DNA of 64,000 nucleotides, from NCBI RefSeq assembly GCF_005937885.2, contig NZ_CP042176.1, positions 2,599,501 through 2,663,500 of the forward strand, in the 5' to 3' direction. Under the pieces are notes generated by a model. It had not been told where the DNA came from and ran no database searches. It was given only the letters and a program-made list of their open reading frames with translations. This document shows positions 2,216 to 52,955 of this stretch, piece after piece; within the stretch, counting starts at the first letter, position 1, and every line of letters begins with the position of its first letter. The DNA is from Bradyrhizobium sp. KBS0727 (GTDB taxonomy: Bacteria > Pseudomonadota > Alphaproteobacteria > Rhizobiales > Xanthobacteraceae). The position numbers and the translations under genes were made by a program.

Positions 2216-2478
2216 TGGAAAGTGCCAATCTACAGATATTCCACAACATTCGATTGGCGAACGTTTGTTCCTGGTGCACTTTCCCCGCGGGGGAGCAGCC
2301 GGTCCATCTCATTAGCGGACGTCCATCGGCATATCGCCGAATTCGGCTTTCGCGTCCGCACGCGTCGATATTCCCGTTGCTCTCGGCGAGTCGCTGGCGA
2401 GGCGGACGGCACACTTGTCGAGGCGTACGAGCAAGAGATTTGCACGCTGATTGATAGGATGGATTAGATCCAGTCCCT

Positions 2479-3414
2479 TCAGGCGCTCGGTGCCTCGGCG
2501 ATCGCGCCGAGTGTGTCGATCTCGGCGATCTTTTGAAACTCGATGAGATAATCCTGCTGGTGGTTCGTCAACCAACGAACAATTCGTTTGTTAGCAAGAA
2601 GCTTGGCTATATATCCGCGCGCCACCGTCAAATGTAGATTTTCGATACCGTAGCTATCCTCGACGGACTCGACTTGGGTTTGCAGCGCGGCTAGTTCCCG
2701 TTCCATGCGGGCAATCTGTTGACCCGAAGGTGTCGGGGTGCCGCCTCCCTTTCCCTTCTTGGTGACAACGAGCTGACTTTCTGGTGTGGCTGCCCGCAGC
2801 GCTCGGGCAAACATGACCGTAAAGTTGTTTTGACCAATCATGAGGTCGGCGGCTTCAATCTGACGAACAGCGGAGAGTTGACGTAGAATGTCAAACACCT
2901 TCATCGAACAAGGTGTATCTTTTAGCATTTCAGCGGCTTCGGAACTGATCCCTTCCAGTAGTCGGAATTTCCGCAGAACAGACAAGACCTGAAGGTTTAA
3001 GGCGTTTGCAATGTCAGCGGATGAGACACCGCGCTCCATGGCGCGTGCGATCATCCGATGCTCCTGGATCGGGGGTATGCGGTTGACACGTTTGTTATAG
3101 GTATAGGTGTCGTCGTCAGTGGCCAGCAAGCATTCGACCTCAGCGATGCCCAGTTCTTTGAGTACCTCTATCCGCAGATGGCCATCGAGAAGGAACCACG
3201 TTCCTAGATTCGTTGGGTCTGCCATGACGACTGGAGCTTCGATCAAGCCGATCGCCTTGATAGAACTCAAAATCTGCGCATAGGTCCGGCTCGCTCTGGC
3301 GCCATCCGGCAACGTTTTAAGCGAAACGATTGCTGACACAGGGATGGTCAGGAAGTTTCGCTCAAAAGCCAAACGAATATTGCCATCCTCCCGGCCTTCC
3401 GGTGCATCAGCCAT
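2479..3414 (-). CDS. ParB-like protein with RepB C-terminal domain
   Basis: About 311 residues. An N-terminal ParB-type domain contains the WFLLDGHLRIEVLKELG stretch in place of the canonical GERR box, followed by helices (EHRMIARAMERGVSSADIANAL) typical of the HTH part of plasmid-partition RepB proteins. The ATG at 3414 is chosen because GGGAGGTG lies six bases upstream; it overlaps the preceding ParB gene by eight bases, so the two are translationally coupled. The family binds DNA and normally works in segregation. Here it is the last gene of a recombinase operon with no ParA, so a regulatory or recombination-accessory role is more likely (inference). Confidence 0.85.
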   Translation of the reverse strand: MADAPEGREDGNIRLAFERNFLTIPVSAIVSLKTLPDGARASRTYAQILSSIKAIGLIEAPVVMADPTNLGTWFLLDGHLRIEVLKELGIAEVECLLATDDDTYTYNKRVNRIPPIQEHRMIARAMERGVSSADIANALNLQVLSVLRKFRLLEGISSEAAEMLKDTPCSMKVFDILRQLSAVRQIEAADLMIGQNNFTVMFARALRAATPESQLVVTKKGKGGGTPTPSGQQIARMERELAALQTQVESVEDSYGIENLHLTVARGYIAKLLANKRIVRWLTNHQQDYLIEFQKIAEIDTLGAIAEAPSA

Positions 3415-4306
3415 GATCACCTCCCGATACGCGGGCGGCAAGCGCCCGAGGCATCGTCGATAGTCCTTCCGCTCGCAGCAGGTTTATGAAGCTGTCATCA
3501 GCGAGCAACTCCTTCAGCGCCTCAACAAGGAAGAGAAGCCGGGTCTGGGCGAAGTCCGATTTCTTGACCAGCAAGCGCTGTTTTTCGGCTTCACGTTGAT
3601 AAACCTGCATAAGATCACTGGCCGTCATCCGTCGGCTGATAGTCTTTCGCCCCAGACGCCCAACCGGCAATCCCTTGCCCTGAGTCCGTAGCCGCATGTC
3701 GAGCATACGCCGAACGGCAGCAAGTTTCTTACCTCTTAGTTGACCGGTTTCATAAGCATCAAGGAGCAGATTTTGGGCAAGTTCCGTCTCCGCCTTGGAG
3801 ATCTCCATCGCCAGTGTAATCGGTATGAGGCCAGTCTCGACCGCGGCGACCAAACGCTCCTCGCCGCGCTCGAGGAGCGAGGCAATCATATTGACCCAGG
3901 ATGAACCAACTCCAATCTTTTCGGCGATAACCGTGTCGTTATAACCGCGCGATCGGAGAGCGCTGATCTCCCGCATGAGGTCAATCGGGCGCGGCGTGCG
4001 TCGTGCGATATTTTCGACGAGGCTCATCACCAGACATTCGCTCTCGCTGGCCTCGATCACGACGGCCGGGATCTCGGTCTGACCGAGCATTTGGAAGGCT
4101 TCTAGTCGACCTTCCCCGCAGACGAGATCATATCTGGGGCCACCGATCCCATCGCGGCGGCTCACCGTGATCGGGCGCTTCAGGCCAATCGCTTCGATGT
4201 TGTTCACGATCTCCCGATGCTGGCGCTTGTTGCGCGCGCGAGGATTTAGAACGGTAATCCGGGAGATGGGAATCATCTCAATCCGTTTTTGATGAACAGC
4301 GGGCAT
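3407..4306 (-). CDS. ParB/RepB/Spo0J family protein
   Basis: A 299-residue ParB-family protein. The N-terminal domain (about 10-100) has PITVSRRDG and the nucleotide-binding-type box CGEGRLEAFQMLG, then SLVENIARRTPRPIDLMREI, typical of ParB before the HTH domain (about 110-170, GYNDTVIAEKIGVGSSWVNMI). The C-terminal third is basic and helical. It starts inside the recombinase stop codon (ATGA overlap at 4303-4306) and overlaps the next gene, so three genes form one coupled operon. The arrangement recombinase, ParB, RepB-like, without ParA, suggests DNA-binding partners of the recombinase rather than a partition system (inference). Confidence 0.88.
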   Translation of the reverse strand: MPAVHQKRIEMIPISRITVLNPRARNKRQHREIVNNIEAIGLKRPITVSRRDGIGGPRYDLVCGEGRLEAFQMLGQTEIPAVVIEASESECLVMSLVENIARRTPRPIDLMREISALRSRGYNDTVIAEKIGVGSSWVNMIASLLERGEERLVAAVETGLIPITLAMEISKAETELAQNLLLDAYETGQLRGKKLAAVRRMLDMRLRTQGKGLPVGRLGRKTISRRMTASDLMQVYQREAEKQRLLVKKSDFAQTRLLFLVEALKELLADDSFINLLRAEGLSTMPRALAARVSGGDHG

Positions 4307-5955
4307 CAGGCCGCCTCCGAAAGCGCGATAGGCGTTGCGAGTTCATAAAGAAGAGCGAGATCATCGAAGCGGTAAGCGTCGAGACCAAAGGCATTGTCCT
4401 CGGTCAGTCGCAAATGTTTGGAGATCATATCGATGCGCGGGAAAAGGTAGTAGTCGAGCGGCGCACGATTGGTGCCGTTCATGCGGACGACGATCGTGAC
4501 GTCAGGCGCAAGCGACGTGTCGAACCGTAGTTTCCAGCGCAAAAGCCCGGTCGCTGTCGCGCAACATCGAGCCACGACCACTGAGAGGCTGAACTCACCG
4601 TTGACGACCACACGGTCGGTCTGGAGATCTTGCCAGGCATTGCTGCCGGTGGTGCGCAATCCATCGAGCATCTCGCGCAGAATCGTGGGATAGAGTTTAC
4701 GCAACTCACGATTGATTTCGACATAGCGATAATCGCGATCTGGTGTGAATCCAACCATGCGATAGGCCCGAAGCAGATTGCCGAATCGGGTACTATAAGC
4801 GCTGCTTGATGGTAGAGCGTCGCATTCGTCGATGATTATTCCCGAAAGCAAGCCCTTCTGTTGATAGAGCCCCCTCAACGATTGCAGCATCTCCTCGTCG
4901 CTCAAGCGGAATGAGCGTGCATTGATTATGGTTTTGGCCGCCTCGAACAGTTTGCGCTCGACGATGGCGTCGAACGCATCGTGCGCCTTGATCCACATCT
5001 CAGGTTCGTTCCGGACGCGCTTCTTTTTCAGCTTAAAGGAACGGCGGTTCCATACGTTGTCGCCGGCGTATTTCTCATTGATAAGAAGCTGATGGACTGT
5101 GCCCCGGGTCCAGGAGCGTCCAAGGTCGGTCTGAATGCCCTGTTCATTGAGTTCGGCCGCGATGTCAGCCTCGCTACTTCCTTGATTGACGAAGGCCTGA
5201 TAGATTTTGCGGACTAGATGGACTTCTTCCACGGGACCAAGGGTCAGGATCACCCGGTCGGTCTGGATGCTCTTATGCTCGCCGCGTCCAAGAACTCCTT
5301 TGATCGCGCCGTGTTCGTCGATCAAGGTCCGCCGTAGGCCGAAGCCCGCTGGGCCTCCTTGCCGGTAGCCCTTTTCGATCAGTCGCCCCTGGCCAGCGAA
5401 TACCTTAGTAGATAGCTCGCGGCTATATTCGCCGGCCATCGCGCGCTTGACGCCTTTGACGATGGTCGAGATCGGGCTGCCGTCGTTGTCGAACTGCTCG
5501 GCGCAATATTCGACGGCAATGCCCGCACGCCGGCAGATGTATTCATAGTAGGCGCTTTCGTCAGCATCCTGAAATCGACCCCAGCGGCTGATGTCGTAGA
5601 CGAGAACCAATGTGAAGTTAATACTGCCGGCTTGGACATCCTCGATGAGCTGCCTCAGCGCATCACGTCCCTCGATCTTCAGGCCGCTTTTCCCAGCGTC
5701 AGTATAGGTTCGAACAATCTTGATTCCACGAGCTTCGGCATATTGCTTGATCGCGTCGGATTGATTTTCTGTCGAATACTTTTGATGGTCCGTCGACATG
5801 CGGACGTATTCAGCTGCCCGAATAAGATGCTCCGGTTGTTCCGACCGATTATCGTCGTAGAATATCCGGCTCGTCACATCTCGCGCTTCCTGATTCCCGA
5901 CTGGGGTGCTCCGGGCGATTTTTCGCCGCAGCACATAACGGGCCTCTGCTGCCAT
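4306..5955 (-). CDS. Large serine recombinase
   Basis: 549 residues. The resolvase domain starts near residue 47; the catalytic serine is S54 in YVRMSTDHQ, followed by TENQ and the DAGKSGL and YDISRWGR motifs of large serine recombinases. The recombinase domain (about 200-320) has GGPAGFGLRR and NEKYAGDNVWNRR. Unlike most of the family I see no paired-cysteine zinc ribbon; the last 180 residues form a separate domain beginning LLSGIIIDECDALPSSSAY. Such enzymes integrate or excise elements at att sites or invert DNA. It heads an operon with two ParB-like genes and is divergent, 39 bp away, from a putative regulator. Substrate sites are not identified. Confidence 0.9.
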   Translation of the reverse strand: MAAEARYVLRRKIARSTPVGNQEARDVTSRIFYDDNRSEQPEHLIRAAEYVRMSTDHQKYSTENQSDAIKQYAEARGIKIVRTYTDAGKSGLKIEGRDALRQLIEDVQAGSINFTLVLVYDISRWGRFQDADESAYYEYICRRAGIAVEYCAEQFDNDGSPISTIVKGVKRAMAGEYSRELSTKVFAGQGRLIEKGYRQGGPAGFGLRRTLIDEHGAIKGVLGRGEHKSIQTDRVILTLGPVEEVHLVRKIYQAFVNQGSSEADIAAELNEQGIQTDLGRSWTRGTVHQLLINEKYAGDNVWNRRSFKLKKKRVRNEPEMWIKAHDAFDAIVERKLFEAAKTIINARSFRLSDEEMLQSLRGLYQQKGLLSGIIIDECDALPSSSAYSTRFGNLLRAYRMVGFTPDRDYRYVEINRELRKLYPTILREMLDGLRTTGSNAWQDLQTDRVVVNGEFSLSVVVARCCATATGLLRWKLRFDTSLAPDVTIVVRMNGTNRAPLDYYLFPRIDMISKHLRLTEDNAFGLDAYRFDDLALLYELATPIALSEAA

Positions 5956-7164: not shown

Positions 7165-8685
7165 TCAACCGATCGATTGCCGCTGTTCTCGCCAGGACAG
7201 AGACATGGTCTTAGGGATCTGTTTGAGCCGAATAGGCGTATTGTCGTGCAAAGCGGCTCTCGCTATCTCGGGCGCGAGAAAAGCGAGCCTGAGGCCCTGC
7301 CGAATAACCTTTGGGTTATAACCTGCAGCAACAGCGAGACTTTCGATTGATGTGTGATGACCCCCGGCGAGCTGGCCGAGCCAAGCCCGAGCTCTGACAA
7401 TTGCCTTTATCAGTTTCGGGTCGGCGTTTGTTTCGGATGAAACAAACTGGACATGCATTTCATCTTTTGGCTTGGACGCCCAAGGGATTTCAATCGGGCG
7501 TCTGTTGCCCCTCGTGTCTGTCAAAGTGATCTGAATTTTTCCGGCAGACACTGTGACGCGCTGGATACGTTCAAACATCTGGTCAACCGCAATATCGGTT
7601 TCTCCTGCATCGAGTCTCTTCCGAAGTTCCATTTCGACGAGATTTTCGATCTCCTGTGCCGAGATCCGCCTGACCGACCCCGCGGCGTGCTTTCGCCCCC
7701 GTAAGGCGGTGCTGATATAGAACCGGTATCGCACGCCATTCTTGTTCGAAAACGTCGGTCCCATCCGGTTGCCCTTATCGTCGAATAGCTTGCCCTTGAG
7801 AAGGGCGCCGCTCTCTGAGAATTTCGTACCGCGCCTGACGTTATTTTCCTTGAGCAGCCCCTGCACCTGGTCAAAGGTCTCGCGGTCCAGGATTGCGGCA
7901 TGCTCCCCCTTGAACCATTTGCCGCCGTGATGGGTCTCGCCAAGATAAATGCGGTTCTTCAAGAAATGGGCGAGGGGACCATAGGTGAAGGGAATGCCTC
8001 CGTTATACTTGGCAACCCTGGTATTGCGCCGCTTGGTGACAATACGCCGCCGATCTAGTTCGGCGACGAGTTTGCCGAAGGACCGCAGTTCGAGATACTG
8101 CTGGAAAATGGTCCGGACGGTTTGAGCCTCGCCCTTGTTGATGACGAGCTTCTTGTCCCGGGCTTCGTAACCCAAAGGCACGGTGCCGCCCGTCCATTTG
8201 CCTTTTTTGCGGGACGCCGCCACCTTGTCTCTGACCCGTTCGGACGCCAGTTCTCGCTCAAACTGGGCAAAGGACAGCAGGACGTTGAGAGTCAAGCGGC
8301 CCATGGAGGTGGTCGTATTAAACTGCTGGGTCACCGCCACGAACGAAATCGAGCGGGCATCGAAGGTCTCCACCAGCTTTGCGAAATCCGCCAGTGACCG
8401 GGTCAGTCGATCGATCTTGTAGACCACCACGACATCGATTTTGCCGACCGTGATGTCAGCTAGCAGCCGCTTGAGGGCAGGGCGGTCGAGATTGCCGCCG
8501 GAATAGGCAGGATCGTCATAATGCTGCGGCAGGAGCCGCCAGCCTTGTGAAGCCTGGCTCTTGATATAGGCCTCGCAAGCCTCCCGTTGGGCGTCAAGGG
8601 AATTGAACTCCTGGTCCAGTCCGTGCTCGGTCGATTTGCGGGTATAGATGGCGCAGCGAAGCGGCCTGACTGAATCAGCCGGCAT
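7165..8685 (-). CDS. Serine recombinase of cassette A
   Basis: About 506 residues. Resolvase domain with catalytic S18 in IYTRKST, then NSLDAQREACEAYI, YSGGNLDRPALKRLL and VYKIDRLTRSLADF; recombinase domain around PLGYEARDKKL and HFLKNRIYLGE; a C-terminal part with RYRFYIS and a terminal helix-rich segment. ATG 8685 is preferred over 8703 because GGAGGC stands seven bases before it. The gene overlaps the end of DUF2924, and DUF3489 lies further upstream; this trio recurs at 47.9-50.2 kb. Such enzymes catalyse site-specific integration or excision. The close similarity to the copy at 47905 over the whole length shows a shared origin. Confidence 0.93.
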   Translation of the reverse strand: MPADSVRPLRCAIYTRKSTEHGLDQEFNSLDAQREACEAYIKSQASQGWRLLPQHYDDPAYSGGNLDRPALKRLLADITVGKIDVVVVYKIDRLTRSLADFAKLVETFDARSISFVAVTQQFNTTTSMGRLTLNVLLSFAQFERELASERVRDKVAASRKKGKWTGGTVPLGYEARDKKLVINKGEAQTVRTIFQQYLELRSFGKLVAELDRRRIVTKRRNTRVAKYNGGIPFTYGPLAHFLKNRIYLGETHHGGKWFKGEHAAILDRETFDQVQGLLKENNVRRGTKFSESGALLKGKLFDDKGNRMGPTFSNKNGVRYRFYISTALRGRKHAAGSVRRISAQEIENLVEMELRKRLDAGETDIAVDQMFERIQRVTVSAGKIQITLTDTRGNRRPIEIPWASKPKDEMHVQFVSSETNADPKLIKAIVRARAWLGQLAGGHHTSIESLAVAAGYNPKVIRQGLRLAFLAPEIARAALHDNTPIRLKQIPKTMSLSWREQRQSIG

Positions 8686-9169
8686 GGCCGTCGCCTCCAT
8701 CACTGGAGCCAGCCGATCTCAGGCCAAAGAACCGGGGGCCATTCCATCTGGTCCCGGTGATTGAGGTCGCGATCTCAGACAGGCTGGCGAAGGTTTTGCC
8801 CTCATATGCAAATCCCTTCTCCAGTATCCGGACCCGGTAGGTCCGCCGATTCCAGGTCCGCACCAGTTCGGAGCCTGGCTTGATCCGGCGGGGTAATTCC
8901 AGGCGAGCGCCCGGCTTGGTCGCTGCGGCCTTGACCAGCTGGTCGAGCAGGCGCTGCGTTGCGGCGGGAAGGCCGCCATAGGCCCTTTCCTGGATGAGGT
9001 GGGCGATGCTACGCCTTAGCAAATCGGGGCCGAAGGCCTTGGGTGGTTCGGCCTTGAATAGCTCCCGGTAGCGTTTTCGAAGCTCGACGATAGGGGTGGC
9101 CGGCAGGCGCTCCAGTTCGGCCTCAACTGCAGGGTTCACCTTGGCGCCTGCCGGCCACAGCTCCTTCAT
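8675..9169 (-). CDS. DUF2924 domain-containing protein (cassette A)
   Basis: 164 residues with the DUF2924 core: [47 protein letters not shown] and a C-terminal part rich in aromatic and basic residues ([13 protein letters not shown]). The ATG at 9169 overlaps the DUF3489 stop (ATGA); a longer open frame upstream is not needed. DUF2924 is known almost only beside serine recombinases with DUF3489, so an accessory role in recombination or DNA binding is inferred; the biochemical function is unknown. It overlaps the recombinase start, so the three are translationally coupled. Confidence 0.9.
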
Positions 9170-9510
9170 GCCGCAGCTCCAGCCTTCGCGATGCGATAGA
9201 ACCGCTGTTCGCCAAGCTTTTCGGACGTCAGCGCCAGCTTGAGCTTCTTCTTCACGACGGCTGAGAAGAAGCCGCGGACCGAGTGAGGCTGCCATCCGGT
9301 CGCCTTGACGATGGCGTCAATTGGCGCGCCTTTGGGCTGCCGAAGAAGGGTGAGCACGGTGTCCTGTTTGGACGATGACAACTGGGGGATGCGTGGAGCT
9401 AGACCTTTCTTCTTCTGCGACGTCAACGCTGGAGATGGACGCTTGGGGGTCGCAGCCTTCGCCGCTCCCTTGGCGGTTTTCGATTTCAATTTGGATTTGG
9501 CTTTAGCCAT
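9166..9510 (-). CDS. DUF3489 domain-containing protein (cassette A)
   Basis: 114 residues. A lysine/alanine-rich N-terminal tail (about 1-45) leads into the DUF3489 core: [28 protein letters not shown] and [14 protein letters not shown], which looks like a winged helix. First gene of the coupled trio with DUF2924 and the recombinase. The tail suggests nonspecific DNA contact (inference). A paralogue lies at 49882-50232. Confidence 0.9.
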
Positions 9511-11156: not shown

Positions 11157-12551
11157 CTAACCGACCCACGAAAGCGAGGCATCGTAGCCCGGCTTGTAGG
11201 CCAACGCCTGACTAATGCTATCGACCTGATCGTCGGTCTTGCCTTGCGGAAAAGTCAAAAGCTCGGTCTCCAGGTCTGCGAGAAACCGTGCAGCTTTGGG
11301 GAATAGTACAAGCCCCGCTTCGAATTTGGACTGCTGAACATACAGGCGGCCGATCTTGTCCCGCTCGACCGGGATCGGTCTGACTGCATAAGTTCCGGCC
11401 TGACGAAGTTCCTGCGCCAAGGCAATTCCGGTAGAGGCATCTTCGATCATAATCACACCGGGCTTGAAGCGTTCCGCTAGCGCCGCAGCGGTCTCTCGCA
11501 GCCGAGGGTATTCGTAGCGGCCTCGAGTGACATCGAGCAGGTAAAAGTGCTTTTCATGAATGAGCCACGTCGTGCAGACCGACCAATCGTTCTGGGCACC
11601 GTTCTTAGCCGCCGTGTCCCAACTCTGAATGACCTTGGTTCGGTAGGTGCGCTCCGGAGCGACCTCATAATAGCGTAACCACTGCTTCCGGATCATTGCC
11701 CCACCAGGAGGGACGGGCGCTTGCTGGTACTGTGCCGCAAAAACGTCCGATCCGACTTCGTTGCGCAGCTTCTCTAGCGTTGCGAGCGATTCATATTCCT
11801 GATGCAAGGCCGCACCGACGCGACGTAGATAGTATTTCTCCGGTCCAACCGCTATTTTCTCGTCGGCTTCCGCAATCGCCGGCACGCTGAGAACGGTCCA
11901 TTCATCTGAGCTTTCCGTCAGGTATCCGGTCAGGTCAAGCAGATGCACCCGCTGCATCACAACGATGATGACGCCCGATTCCTTGTTATCGAGCCGCGAT
12001 CTGAGAGTGTTTGAGAACCACTGAGTCACTCCGTTTCGAAGCACCTCAGACTGCGCATCCGCCGGCTTTTGCGGGTCGTCGATGATAAACATGTCGCCGC
12101 CCATGCCTGTCAAAGCCGCATTGACCGACGTTGATTTCCGATAACCTCTCTGAGTCGTTTTAACATCTGAGTCTGCGGCACGAGCAATGCGCATGTTGGG
12201 AAAGGCGCGCCGATACCATGAGGACTCGACGATGGCACGGAAGTCCGCGGCGTGCTTGCCCGACAGCTCGTTGCCATAAGAAATGCCAAATATCTTCAGC
12301 CGAGGATTGTGACCAAGCAGAAACGCTGGGAAGATTACTGAGACGGTGAGGGACTTGAGATAACGTGGCGGGAGATTGATAATCAGACGTGTAACCTCGC
12401 CCGCGCGGACGCGCTGCAGTTGGTAGGAGATCGCCTCGATATGCCAGTTGGCCATGAATTTGGCGCCGGGATTCAACGTCTGCATGCAGCGATGGAGAAA
12501 ACTCTTAAAGTCGCTGCGCAAGACAGCGTTGAATAGATCTTGCTCTTTCAT
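11157..12551 (-). CDS. Phage terminase large subunit (TerL)
   Basis: 464 residues. ATPase domain with a Walker A-like loop PPRYLKS (61-67) and Walker B FIIDDP (155-160); nuclease domain with the three acidic clusters WDTAAKNG (about 310), MIEDASTG (about 366) and DDQVDS (about 446). TerL packages phage DNA into procapsids. Length and motifs are intact. It overlaps DUF5681 by four bases (ATGA) and ends in a gap shared with the PD-(D/E)XK-like gene. No portal, capsid or tail genes are visible in the window, so the packaging target is unknown; it could serve a satellite or a decayed prophage. Confidence 0.9.
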   Translation of the reverse strand: MKEQDLFNAVLRSDFKSFLHRCMQTLNPGAKFMANWHIEAISYQLQRVRAGEVTRLIINLPPRYLKSLTVSVIFPAFLLGHNPRLKIFGISYGNELSGKHAADFRAIVESSWYRRAFPNMRIARAADSDVKTTQRGYRKSTSVNAALTGMGGDMFIIDDPQKPADAQSEVLRNGVTQWFSNTLRSRLDNKESGVIIVVMQRVHLLDLTGYLTESSDEWTVLSVPAIAEADEKIAVGPEKYYLRRVGAALHQEYESLATLEKLRNEVGSDVFAAQYQQAPVPPGGAMIRKQWLRYYEVAPERTYRTKVIQSWDTAAKNGAQNDWSVCTTWLIHEKHFYLLDVTRGRYEYPRLRETAAALAERFKPGVIMIEDASTGIALAQELRQAGTYAVRPIPVERDKIGRLYVQQSKFEAGLVLFPKAARFLADLETELLTFPQGKTDDQVDSISQALAYKPGYDASLSWVG

Positions 12552-12985
12552 GGCTGACCTCCTCCATCCTCAGACGGTTTTTTGAAGTCGCGCAGATAGG
12601 CATCCAAAACTTCTTTGTCGTCTTCGCTGAGGTCTGCCTGTGCGGCGTTGCCTGCAGCGGCTGCGTAATAGCGGTTGAGTAGGAATCCCACGCTTTTGAT
12701 GTTGCCGCGTAGGCAGTCCTCAGCGATTTTTCGCAAAATCGCTTCGAGAAGGATAATTTTGCGGGTCTTGCCGCGCTCATTCAGCACAACCTTGTGCTGA
12801 AGCAATTCTTGGAGGATTGTGATTTCGTTTTTGACGCCCTTCTTCCGGCCCTTAGGATTGCCGCTTTGTCCCGGTTTGAATTGGTGGCGGCGAGGGGGCT
12901 TCCCGTAACCGACGTCTTCGTCATCATCTTCAAGCCGAAGACGAACGACACGGCGGCGCTTTCGCTTACCGTTATCTGCGGCCAT
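12548..12985 (-). CDS. DUF5681 protein, candidate small terminase-like (cassette A)
   Basis: 145 residues. A basic N-terminus (NGKRKRRRVVRLRL) precedes the DUF5681 signature VGYGKPPRRHQFKPGQSGNPKG (about 26-47), then helices (EITILQELLQHKVVL). DUF5681 genes usually lie next to TerL, where they may act as the DNA-recognising small subunit; that role is inferred from position. The start overlaps the methyltransferase gene by 14 bases and the end overlaps TerL, so three genes are coupled. Confidence 0.88.
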   Translation of the reverse strand: MAADNGKRKRRRVVRLRLEDDDEDVGYGKPPRRHQFKPGQSGNPKGRKKGVKNEITILQELLQHKVVLNERGKTRKIILLEAILRKIAEDCLRGNIKSVGFLLNRYYAAAAGNAAQADLSEDDKEVLDAYLRDFKKPSEDGGGQP

Positions 12986-14303
12986 TTGATCCTCCCACTA
13001 TTGCGAGGGCGCGCTCGGCAGCCACCTCGTCGAAGGTCTGGCCAGTCGCCTTCAAAATGGCGTCGCGTTTGGTAAAATCTTGCCACCGCTTGACGGCGAC
13101 ATCGACATACAGGGGATCAATTTCCAGGCCGTACGCGCGTCGGCCGACTTTTTCAGCGGCGAGGATCGATGTGCCTGACCCCATGAAAAGATCGAGGACG
13201 ATGTCATTACGCCGCGAGCAATCGCGCATTGCGTCGGCAACAAGTGCGACCGGCTTGACAGTCGGATGAACGGACAGTTCATCGAGCCTTCCGGCCCGAA
13301 ACGTGTTTACGCCTGAGTATGTCCAGACATTCGAGCGATTTCGACCATGCCGACCGAGCTCAATGTTATTTTGGTGCGGGCCATTCCCATTCTTGAACAC
13401 GAATATCAGCTCGTGCTGCGAGCGATAGAAACTTCCCTGTCCGGCGTTGGTTTTTGCCCAGACGACAATATTTTTCAGTTCGGCAAAAACGTCTTCGCCC
13501 GCAGCGAGAAGTTCCGCAAGGTGACGCCAATCCATGCAAATGTAGTGGATTGATCCATCTTCAGAAAATTGAGCCGCAAGCCTCATCCATTTCTTCAGGA
13601 AGGCGACAAATTGAGACGGAGACATCTCGCCGGATGCTAGGGCAAATTCCCGATGCTTGATTTTGCCGCGGCCAACAATTGATTTAATTCGGATATTGTA
13701 GGGAGGATCGCTAAATGCCATGGCCGCAAGTCGGCGGCCCATCAAGGCGCGAACGTGTGCGGCCTCACAAGAGTCGCCGCAAAGAATTCGATGGCGGCCG
13801 GCTTGCCACAGGTCATCCAGCCGACTGGTTGATTTACTGGCAAGTTGCGGTAGTTCATCGGCAGGGTCGCGTTCGGTATCGACAAAATCGCCCATGAGAC
13901 TGTCGATTTCACCGGTGTCAAAGCCGGTGATTTCCATCGTCAGCTCGATCTCGGGTAGAAGAATGGCGAGCTCACCAAGCTCGGCTGCTAGAATCTTCCG
14001 GTCCCAGGCCGCGTTTGCGGCGATCTTGTTGTCGGCGAGCATAAGCGCGCGTTTTTCGGCATCGCCTAGATGGGCTAACGAGATGACTGGTACCTTCGCC
14101 AACCCCAGTCTTTGCGCTGCCAGCCAGCGGCCGACGCCACAGAGGATATTGCCAAGCTCGTCGACTAGAATAGGATAGGTCCACCCGAATCGCCGGATAC
14201 TGTTGACGATCTGCTCGACTTGCTTCTTAGAATGGGTTCGCGCGTTTCGTTTGCTTGGTCGGAGTTTGCCAGTTGGCATTTCGATGATGGGATGAAGGCA
14301 CAT
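12972..14303 (-). CDS. ParB-domain DNA adenine-type methyltransferase (cassette A)
   Basis: 443 residues. An N-terminal ParB-like domain (about 8-100, ILCGVGRWLAAQRLG, LMLADNKIA) is fused to an N6/N4-type methyltransferase with motif IV DPPY at 199-202 and the AdoMet-binding FMGSGT at 373-378, the motif order of beta-class enzymes. TRD-like sequence lies between (WAKTNAGQGSFYRSQHEL). It would methylate a specific DNA sequence using AdoMet; the ParB part may guide or regulate. It heads an operon with DUF5681 and TerL. A homologue with the same layout is at 50778. No cognate restriction gene is certain, though the nuclease-fold gene at 10575 is a candidate. Confidence 0.92.
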   Translation of the reverse strand: MCLHPIIEMPTGKLRPSKRNARTHSKKQVEQIVNSIRRFGWTYPILVDELGNILCGVGRWLAAQRLGLAKVPVISLAHLGDAEKRALMLADNKIAANAAWDRKILAAELGELAILLPEIELTMEITGFDTGEIDSLMGDFVDTERDPADELPQLASKSTSRLDDLWQAGRHRILCGDSCEAAHVRALMGRRLAAMAFSDPPYNIRIKSIVGRGKIKHREFALASGEMSPSQFVAFLKKWMRLAAQFSEDGSIHYICMDWRHLAELLAAGEDVFAELKNIVVWAKTNAGQGSFYRSQHELIFVFKNGNGPHQNNIELGRHGRNRSNVWTYSGVNTFRAGRLDELSVHPTVKPVALVADAMRDCSRRNDIVLDLFMGSGTSILAAEKVGRRAYGLEIDPLYVDVAVKRWQDFTKRDAILKATGQTFDEVAAERALAIVGGSNGRR

Positions 14304-14325
14304 ACAAGCTCCATTCGATTGGAAT

Positions 14326-14361: not shown

Positions 14362-14545
14362 ACCTGCTCCTAGCCCAGTCGAAATGAGGCAACAGGCTGT
14401 TGCAGAACGGCCAGCTGTTCTCGGTATGGACGAACGCGTCCGGTCCAACCAGGCTACCGACCCCGATGCGCGATCCCTACGTCCTTAACGTTGGCGAGGC
14501 ATCCGAGGGATGGGTTCGCGTTGGGTCTTTGTTGGCAGTGAGTCT

Positions 14546-14800: not shown

Positions 14801-14860
14801 ATTAGGAATTGGTGACTGATTCGCGCTAAGGCTAGTCGCTTTATGGCAAAATTACGACCG

Positions 14861-15556: not shown

Positions 15557-15665
15557 GGAAGCCTCCCAGCGCTTTTGGCGATAGCCAAGACTCAGCGACG
15601 ATTCCTGTCAACAAAACGGTCCCCGTCTCGTCTGTCAACGGAATTTTGAGGCTGATCGCTTCGCG

Positions 15666-15698
15666 TAATGAGCGGTTATGGAACGGTCGCTCCTGGCG
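15666..15698 (+). repeat. Left half of a dispersed repeat split by the IS
   Basis: TAATGAGCGGTTATGGAACG and the following bases to CTGGCG match 52881-52913 with few changes. The right half continues after the IS at 17217 as GGCGCAAAGCGGACATT. GGCG flanks the IS on both sides, consistent with a 4-bp target duplication. Confidence 0.75.
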
Positions 15699-46313: not shown

Positions 46314-47087
46314 ATGACTGAACATGTGAAAACCGAAATCGACGCCGGCATCATGACATTGACGCTGGCGCGCCCCGACAAGAAGAATGCCCTGAGCAAC
46401 GCCATGTATAGCGCGATGTCGGATGGTTTGGAGCGCGCGGAGAAAGATCCGGCTGTCCGCGTCGTTCTGTTCCGGGGCGACGGTGACAGCTTTACGGCTG
46501 GAAATGACCTGGCCGATTTCTCTGCCCAGGCCAACGGCAAGGAGACCGGCGAGCCGCAGGCGCATCGGTTCATAAGCAATCTCGGCAAGGCCACCCGTCC
46601 GCTCATTGCCGCCGTGCAAGGCAACGCAGTCGGAGTCGGCACCACGATGCTGCTTCATTGCGATCTGGTGTTCCTGGCCGACACCGCCAAGCTGATGACG
46701 CCGTTCGTCAACCTGGCGCTGGTTCCGGAGGCCGCCTCGAGCTGGCTGCTGCCGGCGCGGATCGGACATGTCCGCGCCTACGCCATGTTTGCATTGGGAG
46801 AACCGCTCGATGCCGCTACCGCATTGGCCTGCGGTCTCGCCAACGCTGTGGTGCCGGTCGCAGATTTGCGCGCCAAGGCGCAGGCAGCGGCCGAAGCCCT
46901 CACCAAACGGCCGGCTGGCTCGCTAAACCACACCAAGGCATTGATGCGGGATATGGACAAGATCGCCGCCCAGATCAGCCGAGAAGGCGCATTGTTTCGC
47001 GAGCGCCTGCAGACCGGCGAAGCGCGCGAGGCCTTCGCGGCGTTTGCCGAACGCCGCAAGCCCGATTTCTCGAAGGTTGCGGGATAA
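46314..47087 (+). CDS. Enoyl-CoA hydratase/isomerase family protein
   Basis: 257 residues. Crotonase fold: ARPDKKNALSNAMY, the oxyanion region FTAGNDLADF (about 60-69) and AAVQGNAVGVGTTMLLHCDLVF (about 100-121), then PEAASSWLLPARIG with Glu as a catalytic residue. Could hydrate or isomerise acyl-CoAs in beta-oxidation. AAGGAGA is before the start. Stands alone. Confidence 0.92.
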   Translation: MTEHVKTEIDAGIMTLTLARPDKKNALSNAMYSAMSDGLERAEKDPAVRVVLFRGDGDSFTAGNDLADFSAQANGKETGEPQAHRFISNLGKATRPLIAAVQGNAVGVGTTMLLHCDLVFLADTAKLMTPFVNLALVPEAASSWLLPARIGHVRAYAMFALGEPLDAATALACGLANAVVPVADLRAKAQAAAEALTKRPAGSLNHTKALMRDMDKIAAQISREGALFRERLQTGEAREAFAAFAERRKPDFSKVAG

Positions 47088-47904
47088 GATCGCGAAATTA
47101 CAGGGAAGGTTCTGGCCGCCACTTCGGGCCGACAACTGAAACGCAAGATCCCCAAACTGGCGGCCTAGATCGGTACCCGCTGGATTCCTACCGCCGGCTG
47201 CTGGTCGGCCTTCCCGTATGGGCAGTTTTTTTCTCCTGCGGTGGAAGCCCAATAGGCTGGCGCGTTCTGGAAGACCGGCGGCGATCCAATTGCCTGTTAA
47301 CTCCCCGCAGATCCCTGCTCGTCCTGATAATTTCCCTGTTAAGCCGCTTAGGGAAATCGTCTGAACGTGGCTGCGGTGCAGCGGTTTTCTCAGTTTAAGG
47401 GTCGCAATCGAGCCTCAAAATTGTAATTTTCCCTGAAAAATTCCCTGTTAGCAGGGAATTAGCTGGGAGACCGGTGCGATCTGCACTGCGTCGCCAGCCA
47501 GCCATTCCGGCGTTAGGCCGGGCTCCCCAGGAAACGCGAGAATGCGCCGGAAATCCCGGCTTTTCGCGCATTCGACTTCGTCTCCGGACTCCGGATTCGC
47601 CGATCTTGAGGGGGAAATCGCCGAAAGTCTCCGGCCTTGTCCGGGAATATTCCCGTTTTGGGGAGACTATGGGCGGAGACCGGTTTGATCAGCACTGCCG
47701 CCCGACCATGGCACTCTGCCCAGGCCGGTTCTGTGGCCTCGAGTGGACGAAACTGGGAATCTGTCGCCTGCACTAGTGGCGAGTATGTTTCCGCGGGCGT
47801 TGGGCCCTCAAATTAAATGGCCGGAGGTGTTCAGCGTCAGGGCAATCCCACAAGCAGGGGCGCGAGCTTATCAGTCAGACGCATGTTCAAGTTGGGAGCG
47901 GAAT
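47088..47904. other. Gene-poor interval before cassette B
   Basis: No convincing gene in 817 bp on either strand. The short frames do not resemble any family. It contains the perfect hairpin AATTCCCTG-TTAG-CAGGGAATT (47439-47460) and several spaced TTTCCCTG/ATTCCCTG words (47331, 47429, 47440). This looks like a rhizobial intergenic repeat or a decayed element at the edge of cassette B. Confidence 0.6.
47439..47460. repeat. Perfect 9-bp inverted repeat
   Basis: AATTCCCTG, TTAG loop, CAGGGAATT. No T tract afterwards. Confidence 0.7.
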
Positions 47905-49419
47905 TCAGCTGACTAATCGGTGCTGGTCCGACCATGACAGGGGAAGTAGTTTCGGGATCTGCTTCAGCTCGATAATCGCATCGCCGTCGAGGGCAGCTTT
48001 GGTCAGCGCTGGCGGCAGAAAAGCAAGCCGCAATCCTTTCCGGATGATCTTCGGATGGAGATCCGCCGCTGCGGCAAGAGCTTCGATCGAGGTATGACGT
48101 CCGCCGGACAAATCGTCGAGCCAGGCATGAGCCCGGACAATGGACCTAACTAGCTTCTCGTCCAATTTTGCCTCTGGCGCGGCAATCACATGCGCGCTGC
48201 CCTTTGCCTTTGGTGCCCAAGGGATCTCAATCGAACCCCGTTTCCCCTTCGAGGGTGCCAGGACCAACCGAATTCGTCCATCCGACACGGTGATCGTTTG
48301 GACATGTTCAAGGACTCTATCTTTGGGCAACTGAAGCTTTCCGTTAAGCGCGTCCTCGACAAGGCTTTCAATCTCCGGCGCCGAGATTCGTGTGACGGAG
48401 CCGGCCGTGTGCCTTCGACCACGCATTGCGGTGCTGACGTAGAAGCGATAGCGAACGCCGTTCTTGCAGGAGAAGCTCGGCCCCATGCGGTTGCCCTTGT
48501 CGTCGAACAGCTTGCCTTGCAACCAAGCACCGCTCGCCGAGAACTTGACCTTGCGTTTCACGGTGTTGGACTTGAGCAATTCCTGAACACGATCGAATGT
48601 AGGGCGGTCCATGATCGCTGGATGCTCTCCCTTGAACCATTTGCCGGCGTGATGAGTCTCCCCGACGTAGATACGGTTCTTGAGGAAGTGGGCGAGAGGA
48701 CCATAAGTGAACGGAATGCCGCCTCGATATTTCGGAACTTTGGTATTGCGACGCTTGGTGACGATCTTTCGGCGGTCAAGTTCGCCGACGAGCCTGCTGA
48801 ACGACCCTAGCTCCAGGTAAAGACGAAAAATCATCCGGACGGTCTCGGCCTCGGATTTGCTGATGACTAGCCTCTTATCCTTGGCCTCGTAACCAAGCGG
48901 CACGGTGCCGCCGGTCCATTTGCCTTTGCGGCGGCTGGCGGCGACCTTGTCTCGAACCCGCTCGGCTGACAACTCTCTCTCGAATTGGGCAAATGAGAGC
49001 AGGACGTTCAGAGTCAACCGACCCATCGATGTGGTGGTATTGAATTGTTGGGTGACGGCGACAAACGAGACGGATTTGGCGTCAAAGGCCTCGACCAGCT
49101 TTGCGAAGTCGGCGAGCGAGCGGGTGAGGCGGTCGATTTTGTAGACCACGATCACGTCGACCTTGCCGGATTCGATATCCGCCAGAAGCCTCTTCAAAGC
49201 AGGGCGGTCGAGATTACCGCCCGAGAATGCCGGGTCGTTGTATTGCTGGGGGAGGGCCTTCCAACTCTGAAAAGCCTGGCTCTTAATATAGGCCTCACAG
49301 GCCTCCCGCTGGGCGTCCAGCGAGTTGAACTCCTGGTCGAGTCCATGTTCGGTGGACTTGCGGGTGTAGATGGCACACCGGAGTGTTTTGGAGGCGTCAT
49401 TTGCCAAGGTCGTCTCCAT
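47905..49419 (-). CDS. Serine recombinase of cassette B
   Basis: 504 residues, alike to the recombinase at 7165 along the whole length. Catalytic S22 in IYTRKST; NSLDAQREACEAYI, FSGGNLDRPALKRLL, VYKIDRLTRSLADF; recombinase domain with PLGYEAKDKRL and HFLKNRIYVGE. The ATG at 49419 is used; by comparison with cassette A the TTG at 49407, preceded by GGAGACGACC, may be the true start. Overlaps DUF2924 by 23 bases. Intact. Confidence 0.93.
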   Translation of the reverse strand: METTLANDASKTLRCAIYTRKSTEHGLDQEFNSLDAQREACEAYIKSQAFQSWKALPQQYNDPAFSGGNLDRPALKRLLADIESGKVDVIVVYKIDRLTRSLADFAKLVEAFDAKSVSFVAVTQQFNTTTSMGRLTLNVLLSFAQFERELSAERVRDKVAASRRKGKWTGGTVPLGYEAKDKRLVISKSEAETVRMIFRLYLELGSFSRLVGELDRRKIVTKRRNTKVPKYRGGIPFTYGPLAHFLKNRIYVGETHHAGKWFKGEHPAIMDRPTFDRVQELLKSNTVKRKVKFSASGAWLQGKLFDDKGNRMGPSFSCKNGVRYRFYVSTAMRGRRHTAGSVTRISAPEIESLVEDALNGKLQLPKDRVLEHVQTITVSDGRIRLVLAPSKGKRGSIEIPWAPKAKGSAHVIAAPEAKLDEKLVRSIVRAHAWLDDLSGGRHTSIEALAAAADLHPKIIRKGLRLAFLPPALTKAALDGDAIIELKQIPKLLPLSWSDQHRLVS

Positions 49420-49885
49420 TGTCAGACTTCGACGGCCTCAATCCAAAGAACCGAGGACCATTCCATCTCGTCCCGGTGATTTTGGTGGCGATCTCTGAGA
49501 GGGTATCGAAGGTTTTACCGTCGTAGGCGAACCCGGTTTGGAGGACCGCGACACGATAGGTCTTTCGATTCCAAGTCCGCACCAACTCGGAACCGGGCTT
49601 GATACGCCGGGGCAATTCCAGACGCCCATTGGGTTTGGCGGCGGCAGCCTTCACAAGCTGGTCCAAAAGTCGCCGAGTGGCAGCCGGAAGGCCGCCATAG
49701 GCTTTTTCCTGGATACGTTGGGCGATGCTGCGGCGGAGCAAGTCCGGACCGAAGGCCTTGGGAGGCTCGGTCCGGAATATCTCCCGGTAGCGTGTGCGGA
49801 GCTGGGCGACGGGAAGGGCTACGAGCCGATCCAACTCCTCCTCAACCGATGGATCGGACTTGGACGGTTGCTGGCCAGACCTCAC
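49397..49885 (-). CDS. DUF2924 domain-containing protein (cassette B)
   Basis: 162 residues with a GTG start that overlaps the DUF3489 stop (GTGA). Core as in cassette [61 protein letters not shown]. The N-terminal 15 residues differ. Coupled to both neighbours. Confidence 0.9.
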   Translation of the reverse strand: MRSGQQPSKSDPSVEEELDRLVALPVAQLRTRYREIFRTEPPKAFGPDLLRRSIAQRIQEKAYGGLPAATRRLLDQLVKAAAAKPNGRLELPRRIKPGSELVRTWNRKTYRVAVLQTGFAYDGKTFDTLSEIATKITGTRWNGPRFFGLRPSKSDNGDDLGK

Positions 49886-50232
49886 GCTGCCGCTCCCGGC
49901 TTGGCGATCCGGTAGACCCGGGTGCCGTCCACCTTCTCCGACACCAAATTCAGCTTCAGCTTTCTCTTAATCACGCCAGCAAAGAACCCTCGGACGGAGT
50001 GCTGCTGCCAGTTCGTCGCGCTCATGATCGCATCGATCGTCGCGCCTTTGGGCTGGCGGAGCAGGCCCAGCACCGTTTCCTGTTTGGAAGAGCGGGCAGG
50101 GGCCGCCGTAGCCTTTGAGGCAGCCGTCTTCGCCGGCTTCAGCCTCGCGGGTTGGTTCGTTTTTGCAGTGCCCGGTCGGCTCGTCGGGCGCTTTGCGAAT
50201 TTCGATTTCAGCTTAGGTTTGCGGGTGGCCAT
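49882..50232 (-). CDS. DUF3489 domain-containing protein (cassette B)
   Basis: 116 residues from the ATG at 50232, with GGAGAG five bases before. Long Lys/Ala/Pro-rich tail (about 1-50), then [28 protein letters not shown] and SVRGFFAGVIKRKLKLNL. Same gene order as in cassette A. Confidence 0.9.
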   Translation of the reverse strand: MATRKPKLKSKFAKRPTSRPGTAKTNQPARLKPAKTAASKATAAPARSSKQETVLGLLRQPKGATIDAIMSATNWQQHSVRGFFAGVIKRKLKLNLVSEKVDGTRVYRIAKPGAAA

Positions 50233-50280
50233 CGGTCTCTCCATCGTTGCAACGACAGCAATGTGCTGCCACTGACACGA

Positions 50281-50300
50281 GCCCGGCTTTTTGGCCGGGC
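50281..50300 (-). other. Conserved intergenic hairpin, cassette B
   Basis: GCCCGGC and GCCGGGC around TTTTTG, at the same place as the hairpin in cassette A (9559), just after the shared GTGCTGCCACTGA. The sequences of the stems differ but both pair perfectly. Confidence 0.55.
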
Positions 50301-50322
50301 GAGACTGACCGAACGAGATTTT

Positions 50323-50540
50323 TTAGTCCTGCGAGAGCCTGTTCAGCAGCGAAGCGGCATCGTGAAGGCGGCCGGCTTCGCCGGCAGCGTCACCATCTTC
50401 CTCCAAAGTCTGGTCATCTCTTCCTCCAAAGTAACGAGGACAGTGACGCTCTGGTTGCCGCTGAAGTCGAGCGAATTCGGAGCAATCTTCTTGCTCTCTC
50501 GTTCAGCGTTCTCGGACCGGGCATTGTCCCGATAACAAGT
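50323..50540 (-). pseudogene. Small module gene broken by a 23-bp duplication
   Basis: The frame ENAERESKKIAPNSLDF through GNQSVTVLVTLEE changes phase before the end AGEAGRLHDAASLLNRLSQD, which resembles the end of the 73-aa protein at 9604. TCTTCCTCCAAAGT occurs at 50396 and again 23 bp on at 50419. Removing one 23-bp unit rejoins the frame exactly. No ATG is seen upstream, so the start may also be lost. Confidence 0.65.
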
Positions 50541-50696
50541 GTTGATTTTTGATCTTGGACGGAACCCCGATGATTCGGGTTGCGCGCGCGATTTGGGGGC
50601 TCCTCAACGGGCGTAACAATCGGCCCGTCACGAAAAATTAACGAAATAAGCAATTGAAATCATTGAATAATACAGATTTCGCTTGAAGCGATAAAA

Positions 50697-50748
50697 CCGA
50701 GTTTACCCGGCCAGCACAAGACTGAGTTTCCCGGCGAGCATGCCGGGG
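50697..50748. promoter_or_regulatory. Direct repeats and hairpin before ParB-methyltransferase B
   Basis: GAGTTTACCCGGCCAGCA and GAGTTTCCCGGCGAGCA lie about 25 bp apart, and the second forms the hairpin CCCGGC-GAGCAT-GCCGGG, 30 bp before the start. Possible autoregulation site. The rest of 50541-50777 is AT-rich and holds the promoter region; no gene. Confidence 0.45.
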
Positions 50749-50777
50749 GTTCGCGAAACCAGATGAAAGGTACGGTG

Positions 50778-52121
50778 ATGGCCAATGAATTGAATGCGGC
50801 GACAAACGCCGGTTTAGTCGAGATCCAAATTGAGTATCGGGCGGTGGCGGGTCTCGTCCTGGATGCCCGCAACCCGCGACAGCATTCCCAGCGTCAGATC
50901 AATCAGCTCGCTGACTCCATCCAGGAGTTCGGTTTCGTGATGCCAGTGGTGGTCGACGGAAAGGGCCATGTGGTTGTCGGTCATGGACGAGTTTTGGCAG
51001 CCAAAAAGCTCAGGATGCCGCGCATACCGGTTGTCGAGATTCGGCATCTGTCACAGGCTCAGCTGAAGGCACTTCGGCTTGCTGACAACCGGTTAGCGCA
51101 GCATGCTCATTGGGATGAGAGGCTGCTTGGTGAAAGTCTGCTCGAGTTGAAAGTACTCGACCCGGACTTTGATCTGTCGATCACCGGCTTCAGCTTGTCC
51201 GAGATCGACTTGTCGATCCAAAAATTGAGTGAGGTGACTGTCGAAGATAGCGGCGATGGCAGCTCGGAGACGGGGGTGCCGGTTTGCCAGGTCGGCGACG
51301 TCTGGGAACTCGGAGGCCATCACGTCCATTGCGGAGATGCTACATCTGAGGGTGCGTTTGAGAAACTGATGGAGGAAGAACGCGCTGACGTCGTGTTCAT
51401 TGACCCGCCTTACAATGTTCGCATCGATGGCCACGTTTCCGGCAATGGAAAGATACGTCATCGCGAGTTTGCGCAAGGAGCCGGCGAGCTCAGCCGAGAA
51501 GAGTTTGTTCGCTTTCTGACCGGCAGTTGTAGTCTCCTCAAAAACTACAGCAAAAACGGCGCGATCCATTTCGTGTGCATGGATTGGAAGCACCTTGATG
51601 AACTTCTCGTCGCCGGTCGCGAAGTCTATACGGAACTGAAGAACATCGTGGCCTGGGTCAAGAGCGCGGCCGGTATGGGATCGCTCTATCGCTCTCAGCA
51701 TGAACTGATCTGCGTCTTCAAGTCCGGTATTGGACCACACACCAACAATGTCGAACTCGGCAAGAACGGCCGCAACCGCACCAATGTCTGGCAGTATGAC
51801 AGCGCCGGCACTGAGGCGCGCAAGGGCAACAATGTGCTGGAGCTGCACCCGACGGTCAAGCCTGTCCAGATGGTAATGGATGCGCTGCTTGATTGCTCGA
51901 ACCGCGGCGATATCGTCATCGATAGCTTTCTTGGAAGCGGCACGACGTTGCTCGCAGCCGAACGCACGGGCCGCATCTGTCGCGGGATTGAGCTTGATCC
52001 GCTTTATGTAGATACGGCAATCCGCCGCTGGCAGAATTTGACTGGCCGCGATGCGGTCCGGGTGTCAGACGGCATGCTCTTTCGCGACATCGAAGCAAAA
52101 GCGGAGCGGGGCGATGAATGA
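50778..52121 (+). CDS. ParB-domain DNA adenine-type methyltransferase (cassette B)
   Basis: 447 residues from the ATG at 50778. ParB-like domain (about 18-110: NPRQHSQRQINQLADSIQEFG, VVVGHGRVLAAKKL, LADNRLAQHAHWDE), then a methyltransferase with DPPYN at about 209-213 and SFLGSGTTLLA near 385, beta-class order. Layout as in the gene at 12972; the proteins are clearly homologous but more diverged than the recombinases. Overlaps the next gene by eight bases. Points away from its recombinase, unlike in cassette A. Confidence 0.92.
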   Translation: MANELNAATNAGLVEIQIEYRAVAGLVLDARNPRQHSQRQINQLADSIQEFGFVMPVVVDGKGHVVVGHGRVLAAKKLRMPRIPVVEIRHLSQAQLKALRLADNRLAQHAHWDERLLGESLLELKVLDPDFDLSITGFSLSEIDLSIQKLSEVTVEDSGDGSSETGVPVCQVGDVWELGGHHVHCGDATSEGAFEKLMEEERADVVFIDPPYNVRIDGHVSGNGKIRHREFAQGAGELSREEFVRFLTGSCSLLKNYSKNGAIHFVCMDWKHLDELLVAGREVYTELKNIVAWVKSAAGMGSLYRSQHELICVFKSGIGPHTNNVELGKNGRNRTNVWQYDSAGTEARKGNNVLELHPTVKPVQMVMDALLDCSNRGDIVIDSFLGSGTTLLAAERTGRICRGIELDPLYVDTAIRRWQNLTGRDAVRVSDGMLFRDIEAKAERGDE

Positions 52122-52488
52122 TCAAAAGAACGACTTCGAAGTCGGATACGGAAAGCCTCCCGTCGCGACCCGCTTCAAAAAGGGACAATCCGGAAATCCA
52201 AGCGGAAAGCCGAGAAAAATTGCCCAGAAGCTAGATCCCGGAAAAATTCTGCAGTCAATCGACAACGAAGAAATCACCGTCAAGATCGATGGCAAGGAAA
52301 AACGTATACAAAAAGGAGAGGTATACTTTCGGCAGTTGTTCAACAAAGCAATCAAAGGGAGTCTTTCTGACGCCAGACTCATCGCCAGCATGGCCAAGAA
52401 ATATTTCGGACTGGAAAGCGAGTCTCCTGGCGAGACGAGATTCATCATTGTGCCAGACAAAAAACTGGCCAGTCGAAAATCAAGCTGA
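52114..52488 (+). CDS. DUF5681 protein 1 (cassette B)
   Basis: 124 residues from the ATG at 52114, which overlaps the methyltransferase stop (ATGAATGA). DUF5681 signature EVGYGKPPVATRFKKGQSGNPSGKP (about 9-33). The rest is helical and basic. Coupled to the methyltransferase. A second member follows 14 bp on. Confidence 0.85.
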   Translation: MNDQKNDFEVGYGKPPVATRFKKGQSGNPSGKPRKIAQKLDPGKILQSIDNEEITVKIDGKEKRIQKGEVYFRQLFNKAIKGSLSDARLIASMAKKYFGLESESPGETRFIIVPDKKLASRKSS

Positions 52489-52502
52489 GGCTGAAGAAAA
52501 GC

Positions 52503-52838
52503 ATGAACACGGGATACCGGAACCCTCCAAAAAGCACTCAGTTCAAAAAAGGAAACTCGGGTAATCGAAAGGGTCGACCAAGAAAAACCCTGCCGGAAGT
52601 TTCGATAGGATCTCAGTTCCGAAAAGTCGCCAACGAGCTGGTCACAATCGACGTCGGCGGTACTCAACGCAGAATGTCGCGTTGGGATGCTTTTGTACAT
52701 CAGATCTACAACATGGCGCTTGGCAAGGACACTAGTGCTGCGCGCCTGCTCGACCAACTTCGAAGGCAATTTCCTGGCGACTTGCTTCCCGGTGATCCTA
52801 TTACGTTTTACATCACCGAAGCCGATGCGAGGCTCTGA
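52503..52838 (+). CDS. DUF5681 protein 2 (cassette B)
   Basis: 111 residues. Signature GYRNPPKSTQFKKGNSGNRKGRPRK at 4-28; then VTIDVGGTQRRMSRWDAFVHQIYNMALGKD. A diverged tandem relative of the gene before. In cassette A a single DUF5681 gene is followed by TerL; here TerL is absent and non-cassette sequence begins within about 45 bp. Confidence 0.85.
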   Translation: MNTGYRNPPKSTQFKKGNSGNRKGRPRKTLPEVSIGSQFRKVANELVTIDVGGTQRRMSRWDAFVHQIYNMALGKDTSAARLLDQLRRQFPGDLLPGDPITFYITEADARL

Positions 52839-52880
52839 GCGATACCTGAATGGAACGCATTGGGAATGAGGCTATTCGGG

Positions 52881-52955
52881 TAATGAGCGGTTATGGAACG
52901 GCCGGTTCTGGCGCGCAAAGCGGACATTCAACCAACCCGCCACATCGGCTAAGTG
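52881..52955 (+). repeat. Intact copy of the dispersed repeat
   Basis: TAATGAGCGGTTATGGAACG, CTGGCG, CAAAGCGGACATT and CGGCTAAGT in the same order as the copy broken by the IS at 15666/17217. It borders cassette B. Between here and 53115 no gene is evident. Confidence 0.75.

Follow-up and report, generated by a model that had tools for sequence, protein, structure and literature searches.

The described systems that come closest to cassette B of Bradyrhizobium sp. KBS0727 (source genome: one 7.31 Mb contig), a locus in which a large serine recombinase is combined with a DNA methyltransferase, are satellites, chromosomal islands and complete phages. Phage-inducible chromosomal minimalist islands (PICMIs) resemble this locus and its relatives in being small integrative elements that have no capsid-remodelling genes and carry accessory defence genes, and the definition of their integrase takes in the serine families PF00239 and PF07508 (PMC10803314). 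They carry AlpA and a primase and are located downstream of fis, whereas neither AlpA nor a primase was recognised in the present elements. Packaging of PICMIs seemingly needs just a DNA motif (PMC11389934), whereas the present elements often encode a large terminase subunit (TerL). Phage-inducible chromosomal islands (PICIs) and capsid-forming PICIs (cf-PICIs) share with them the presence of packaging genes on an integrated element; some PICIs encode a small terminase subunit (TerS) or Rpp, and cf-PICIs have genes for capsid, portal and the two subunits of the terminase (PMC11389934, PMC10690885), whereas here TerL is found without capsid or portal genes. A related recombinase next to a DUF2924-like gene, with a ParB-methyltransferase in the same prophage, is known from phage WO (AB036666.1; PMC9203015), which is however a full phage with a lambda-like terminase, a portal and P2-like tail genes. 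Acidithiobacillus phage AcaML1 likewise carries a related recombinase, a DUF2924-like gene and ParB-methyltransferases, but is a complete phage in which gpNu1/gpA terminase, portal and capsid genes come next. No description of an element like the one considered here was found among titles and abstract beginnings in the open literature.

The window, by which we mean the whole 64,000-nucleotide stretch analysed, contains two related elements, A and B (Table 1). The preliminary description of B treated it as a second, rearranged version of the gene set of A, and took the recurrence of the two linked sets 40 kb apart to mean that their association is functional. We read B as one copy, by now partly decayed, of a compact element that integrates site-specifically, belonging to a family of about 4–14 kb whose members would be mobile and composed of two modules, and we assign this reading a probability of about 0.7. 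It draws on the conserved gene order, on paired inverted ends in close relatives, on a shared chromosomal site and on the exchange of modules between elements. As both copies in the window are insertions of related mobile elements, their proximity is not independent evidence of function.

Pfam matches confirmed the recombinase, DUF2924, DUF3489, methyltransferase and two DUF5681 genes ascribed to B, while the accompanying small gene turned out to be an 18-codon remnant (tblastn); it is intact in A (9604-9843) and in several relatives. That B lacks TerL, an XRE gene and a nuclease-fold gene was borne out by the gene map and by DNA comparison with A, and for TerL also by a whole-genome search. 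The limits originally given to B (47905-52838) fall short, as the far terminal site also belongs to it. The DUF2924 gene overlaps the start of the recombinase gene and is itself overlapped by the DUF3489 gene, and the methyltransferase has the motifs DPPYN and FLGSG (conservation across 71 sequences). When five B genes were set against relatives, the ratio of nonsynonymous to synonymous substitution rates (dN/dS) was 0.08-0.26, a result that bears on the history of those lineages and not on the present state of B; for the methyltransferase and TerL of A, compared with a related locus (L009), it was saturated. The order recombinase-DUF2924-DUF3489 is common to A and B, to which A adds TerL, one DUF5681 gene and the methyltransferase; every one of these genes of A is on the minus strand. 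Element A spans approximately 2239-15683 and encloses a second serine recombinase and two RepB/ParB-like genes. The recombinases of A and B are 71% identical and the methyltransferases 46%. All three DUF5681 genes and the only TerL of the element family in this genome lie within the window, as do the two methyltransferases of the ParB-N6/N4 kind, a third genomic match being just 27% identical. Another recombinase copy, the third, lies about 0.7 Mb away; it is broken by a stop and accompanied by a DUF2924 fragment, with no methyltransferase.

A set of 80 related loci from other genomes (labelled L, their genomes G) was compared with the window; 17 are called close, having a recombinase at least 57% identical to that of B over the matched part, and the remaining 63 more distant. 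A 39-bp repeat which stands in the same orientation beyond the far end of both A and B was recognised, in comparison with these loci, as one of two inverted terminal sites of about 25 bp each. The far-end pattern is TTCCATAAC(N2-4)CATTACGCGAATC, and its inverted counterpart on the recombinase side is ATTCGGnnATCGAATGTTATGGAA. With up to 2 mismatches, 9 far-end and 9 recombinase-side matches were found in 82 sequences (1,465,348 bases) and none in three shuffles within 100-base blocks; allowing 4 mismatches gave one match in shuffled sequence. Both ends are present in A, L009, L010, L011, L015 and L021, and more weakly in L017 and L024, while good matches to a single site occur in L012 and L014 (far) and in L016 (recombinase side), and neither site was seen in L013 and L022 despite their full gene set. 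The distance between the ends is 6.8 kb in L009, 6.9 kb in L010, 4.7 kb in L011 and 4.2 kb in L021, the latter two consisting of family genes alone. The compact set recurs, with matching ends, in loci of Bradyrhizobium and Afipia; three loci bearing the titles Deltaproteobacteria (L046), Occallatibacter (L079) and Gastranaerophilales (L084) have its gene order, with ends unrecognised. Among elements with both ends, L011 is the one most like B, and its recombinase frame reads through the end site. A fuller B-type element, with both DUF5681 genes and weak end matches, is L227 in genome G053; beyond its first recombinase it has a second module of the kind enclosed in A (serine recombinase and two RepB/ParB-like genes). 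Since the similarity of B to L008 begins inside the expected place of the recombinase-side site, B is truncated or rearranged there, and without TerL and without a recognisable end on this side it has probably lost the ability to move unaided.

The use of a common chromosomal site is seen for L010, whose right flank was found in five other genomes (98 searched) at 93-97% identity, with alignments beginning 2-5 bases outside the predicted end. A recombinase-side-like site stands at the insertion point in four of these five, and G039 has just the GTTATGGAACGG core. At this place G023 harbours a complete A-type element and G085 a recombinase end, while no query gene was detected in the 17-18 kb examined in G031, G039 and G057; one insertion site is used in six Bradyrhizobium genomes, with differing contents. 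Most of the L010 right flank has a second copy elsewhere in its own genome.

The linkage of the recombinase with the methyltransferase and DUF5681 is, as had been proposed, well beyond chance. In 70 genomes of the genus (40 DUF2924 and 58 DUF5681 hits, two of each below the curated cut-off), 11 of the 40 DUF2924 hits have a DUF5681 hit no more than 10 kb away; hits placed uniformly in a genome taken to be 8 Mb long would give about 0.24. Among the related loci, where contig ends hide some neighbours, 14 of the 17 close ones have the methyltransferase and DUF5681, as do 11 of the more distant ones, and DUF2924 adjoins the recombinase in 17/17 and 61/63, respectively; the small gene was detected in 12 of the 17. 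TerL, which the preliminary description had suggested looking for near other B-type copies, is variable: it occurs in 8 of those 14 and 7 of those 11 loci, and is absent from the B-like L011.

One module joins the recombinase and DUF2924, the other the methyltransferase and TerL, and the two have largely recombined against each other. Tree agreement, expressed as Mantel rho, is high within them (recombinase and DUF2924, 0.72, n=159; methyltransferase and TerL, 0.64, n=50) and low between them (recombinase and methyltransferase, the comparison that the preliminary description had asked for, 0.15, p 0.03, n=63; recombinase and TerL, 0.14, p 0.03, n=65). For methyltransferase and DUF5681 rho is not significant (0.10, p 0.12, n=66), while the shared nearest neighbours are clear (26/66, null mean 1.0). 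Some co-inheritance is visible across modules, the nearest neighbour being shared by recombinase and methyltransferase in 5/63 cases (null mean 1.0), by recombinase and TerL in 10/65 and by recombinase and DUF5681 in 12/77. The locus with the recombinase nearest to that of B (L009, 83% identity) has a methyltransferase 51% identical to that of B and 71% to that of A, whereas the nearest methyltransferase (86%) is in L227, whose recombinase is 63% identical, which indicates that modules were exchanged between elements. The association therefore holds far above chance at the family level, yet it did not reach A and B as a single inherited block, contrary to the initial view of them as versions of a single set. 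The methyltransferase-DUF5681 pair also accompanies a second recombinase type (L216, L222, L223) and, together with TerL, stands beside YqaJ and ERF recombination genes (L214, 8342-14296; L219, 5604-11428), so it rides different recombination modules. No structural protein was found among ten neighbouring proteins scanned in L214 and L219, which are perhaps another capsid-less element type.

Several observations weigh against the reading as a mobile two-module element. The methyltransferase-DUF5681 pair is missing from 52 of the 63 more distant loci, 45 of the 58 DUF5681 hits lie away from DUF2924, and ends were recognised solely in close relatives. No replication gene was recognised in the elements examined, unlike in described satellites. 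At the L010 site the left flanks have no common stretch of at least 250 bases within 20 kb, so that this site looks like an accretion hotspot. A clean empty site was not found for L010, in a search that returned just four of the five known genomes; the joined query matched somewhere in 79 of 98 genomes, mostly with its right part from position 315 onward. Nor was one found for B, whose flanks are never adjacent in six regions compared (one a copy in its own genome, one of 3.9 kb); similarity stops at 47069-47095 and the right flank never comes next. An excised form was not found: no viral contig had terminal repeats, there was no true junction (two loose matches were not junctions), and the predicted joined site occurs neither in IMG/VR nor in 138 genomes; assemblies rarely show circles. 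Three IMG/VR contigs carry the far end in its integrated form.

In the proposed mechanism the recombinase, aided by DUF2924 and perhaps DUF3489, would insert and excise the element between its end sites, and the methyltransferase module would mark element DNA. DUF2924 is likely a recombinase accessory, judging from its co-inheritance; its predicted fold (pLDDT, the predicted local distance difference test, 88) had no PDB match, and we take its resemblance to the RAMA reader of modified DNA as a candidate relation. A phage packaging operon seems to be the source of the second module, whether or not TerL is present in it. In 72 aligned TerL proteins (from genome loci, IMG/VR contigs and two phage-collection records), residues P61, P62, K66, S67, D158, D159, D312, E370, D441 and D444 are identical throughout; they presumably represent the Walker A, Walker B and nuclease motifs of an ATPase and RNaseH-like nuclease. 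TerL frequencies in IMG/VR were not used, since TerL is itself grounds for calling a contig viral. Where TerL is present, excised DNA might be fed into the heads of a helper phage, with DUF5681 in the place of the small terminase; we hold this step only tentatively, while giving it first place among the possible roles of forms with TerL. DUF5681 does occupy the small-terminase gene position next to TerL, and in 4 of 7 phages examined the gene immediately before the related TerL is annotated as a small terminase. Identification of DUF5681 as TerS did not succeed, which counts against this step: a PDB sequence search gave a single match (E 0.48, a designed protein), the predicted structure (pLDDT 78.6) had no PDB match at E 0.001, and comparison with four annotated small terminases and two hypothetical upstream proteins reached 5.0 bits at best (best shuffled 8.6). 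Aligned with CRP-901 gp77 by hhalign, DUF5681 gave a 15-residue match with 19% probability.

The only tblastn match to the first DUF5681 of B at 1e-5 among 50,697 phage-collection records is MT839917.1 ('Bacteriophage sp.', 5,365 bp, human faeces, UNVERIFIED), which encodes recombinase, DUF2924, methyltransferase, DUF5681 and TerL. The record may stem from a study of DNase-treated virus particles (PMC8361208), a link of our own making, 'MT83' not occurring in the main text of that paper, and gives only a hint of particle-mediated transfer. Portal, capsid and tail genes were absent among the genes of L009, L010, L011 and L021 and the genes scanned in L015 and L017, to which the check was limited. 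A primase or an AlpA- or Stl-type regulator was likewise not found, L009, L010, L011 and L021 being filled by family genes besides small unscanned open reading frames; none was seen among the extra genes scanned in L015 and L017, the helix-turn-helix-peptidase gene of L015 belonging to a defence system. It is conceivable, if doubtful, that these elements represent a widespread undescribed class of capsid-less, phage-dependent elements of about seven genes, none for replication, with a large serine recombinase and their own terminase motor and methyltransferase for tagging DNA and loading it into the heads of other phages, the four- and five-gene forms without TerL using the motor of the helper.

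Of the other explanations, a mobile modification or defence island, in which the methyltransferase marks DNA for defence and TerL acts as a nuclease rather than as a packaging motor, survives best and is nevertheless unlikely. PADLOC models of type II methyltransferases match the methyltransferases, a defence gene lies between the ends of L015, and A has a nuclease-like gene; against this, B, L011 and L021 contain no nuclease gene and hence no cognate endonuclease next to their methyltransferase, PADLOC gives no match for TerL or DUF5681, and TerL retains its ATPase residues besides the nuclease ones. Somewhat less likely again is a degenerate prophage, the recombinase being the phage integrase and methyltransferase-DUF5681-TerL what was left of the packaging end after loss of the structural genes. 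The gene content of WO and AcaML1 fits such an origin, as does the portal gene that follows a related TerL, directly or within 1 kb, in phages PHS21, 1N2-2 and Ssp-JY39, but the TerL residues are intact, and a compact set that recurs with matching ends in Bradyrhizobium and Afipia, and in the same order in L046, L079 and L084, disfavours it, as independent decay would hardly stop at identical genes. A merely fortuitous meeting of two common gene sets within an island rich in repeats, which the poor agreement of the recombinase and methyltransferase trees and the many distant loci without the pair might suggest, is very improbable given the 11 co-locations, and is excluded at the family level by the shared terminal sites enclosing both modules.

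For the mobile two-module element, a catalytically intact terminase motor where no capsid gene was found demands a reason. If this reason is packaging into helper phages, several phyla with members in soil and gut would harbour a satellite type missed by primase-, AlpA- or capsid-based searches. The end sites open excision, integration and the content of particles to direct tests. Should packaging not take place, the exchange of two modules would still put DUF2924, DUF3489 and DUF5681 into a concrete context.

Table 1 Coordinates of the features of elements A and B within the window
Feature	Position	Strand	Remarks
A, recombinase-side terminal site	2239..2261	-	2 mismatches; 30.8 bits, next best in window 11.9
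A, second module: serine recombinase (4306-5955) and two RepB/ParB-like genes	2479..5955	-	
A, recombinase, DUF2924, DUF3489	7165..9510	-	
A, TerL, DUF5681, ParB-methyltransferase	11157..14303	-	
A, far terminal site	15658..15683	-	1 mismatch
B, expected place of recombinase-side terminal site, none recognisable	47880..47904	.	L008 similarity starts ~47897; only the site of A matches within the window
B, large serine recombinase (Resolvase and Recombinase domains)	47905..49419	-	Pfam Resolvase 9e-40, Recombinase 3e-15; PHROG integrase 5e-94
B, DUF2924 protein	49397..49885	-	Pfam 5e-43
B, DUF3489 protein	49882..50244	-	Pfam 3e-28
B, small-gene remnant, last 18 codons	50326..50379	-	tblastn
B, ParB-N6/N4 DNA methyltransferase	50763..52121	+	Pfam N6_N4_Mtase 2e-28, ParB_N 7e-6
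B, DUF5681 protein 1	52114..52488	+	Pfam 7e-21; dN/dS 0.19 vs L227
B, DUF5681 protein 2	52503..52838	+	Pfam 4e-18; dN/dS 0.26 vs L227
B, far terminal site	52873..52898	-	2 mismatches to family pattern; none as good in 3 shuffles

The nuclease-like gene of A (10335-11141) was recognised by eye as PD-(D/E)xK-like and has no family match; a related gene (272 bits) is present in the element of G023. Cargo between the ends consists in L015 of 5-hmdU DNA kinase-like, MazG_C, Nmad2 and PD-Lambda-2-like genes (11586-17144) and in L017 of a TonB receptor. Paired recombinase modules on one strand, mostly each with DUF2924, were seen in L080, L081, L137, L146, L149, L151, L153, L157 and L172. To the left of B, a dispersed repeat (47410-47720) sits between it and an enoyl-CoA hydratase gene (46314-47087), and the stretch 47088-47904 has 8 further matches in the genome (72-91% identity), with pieces near several related loci. 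The enoyl-CoA hydratase gene has an 89% identical copy at position 3857209 of the same genome.

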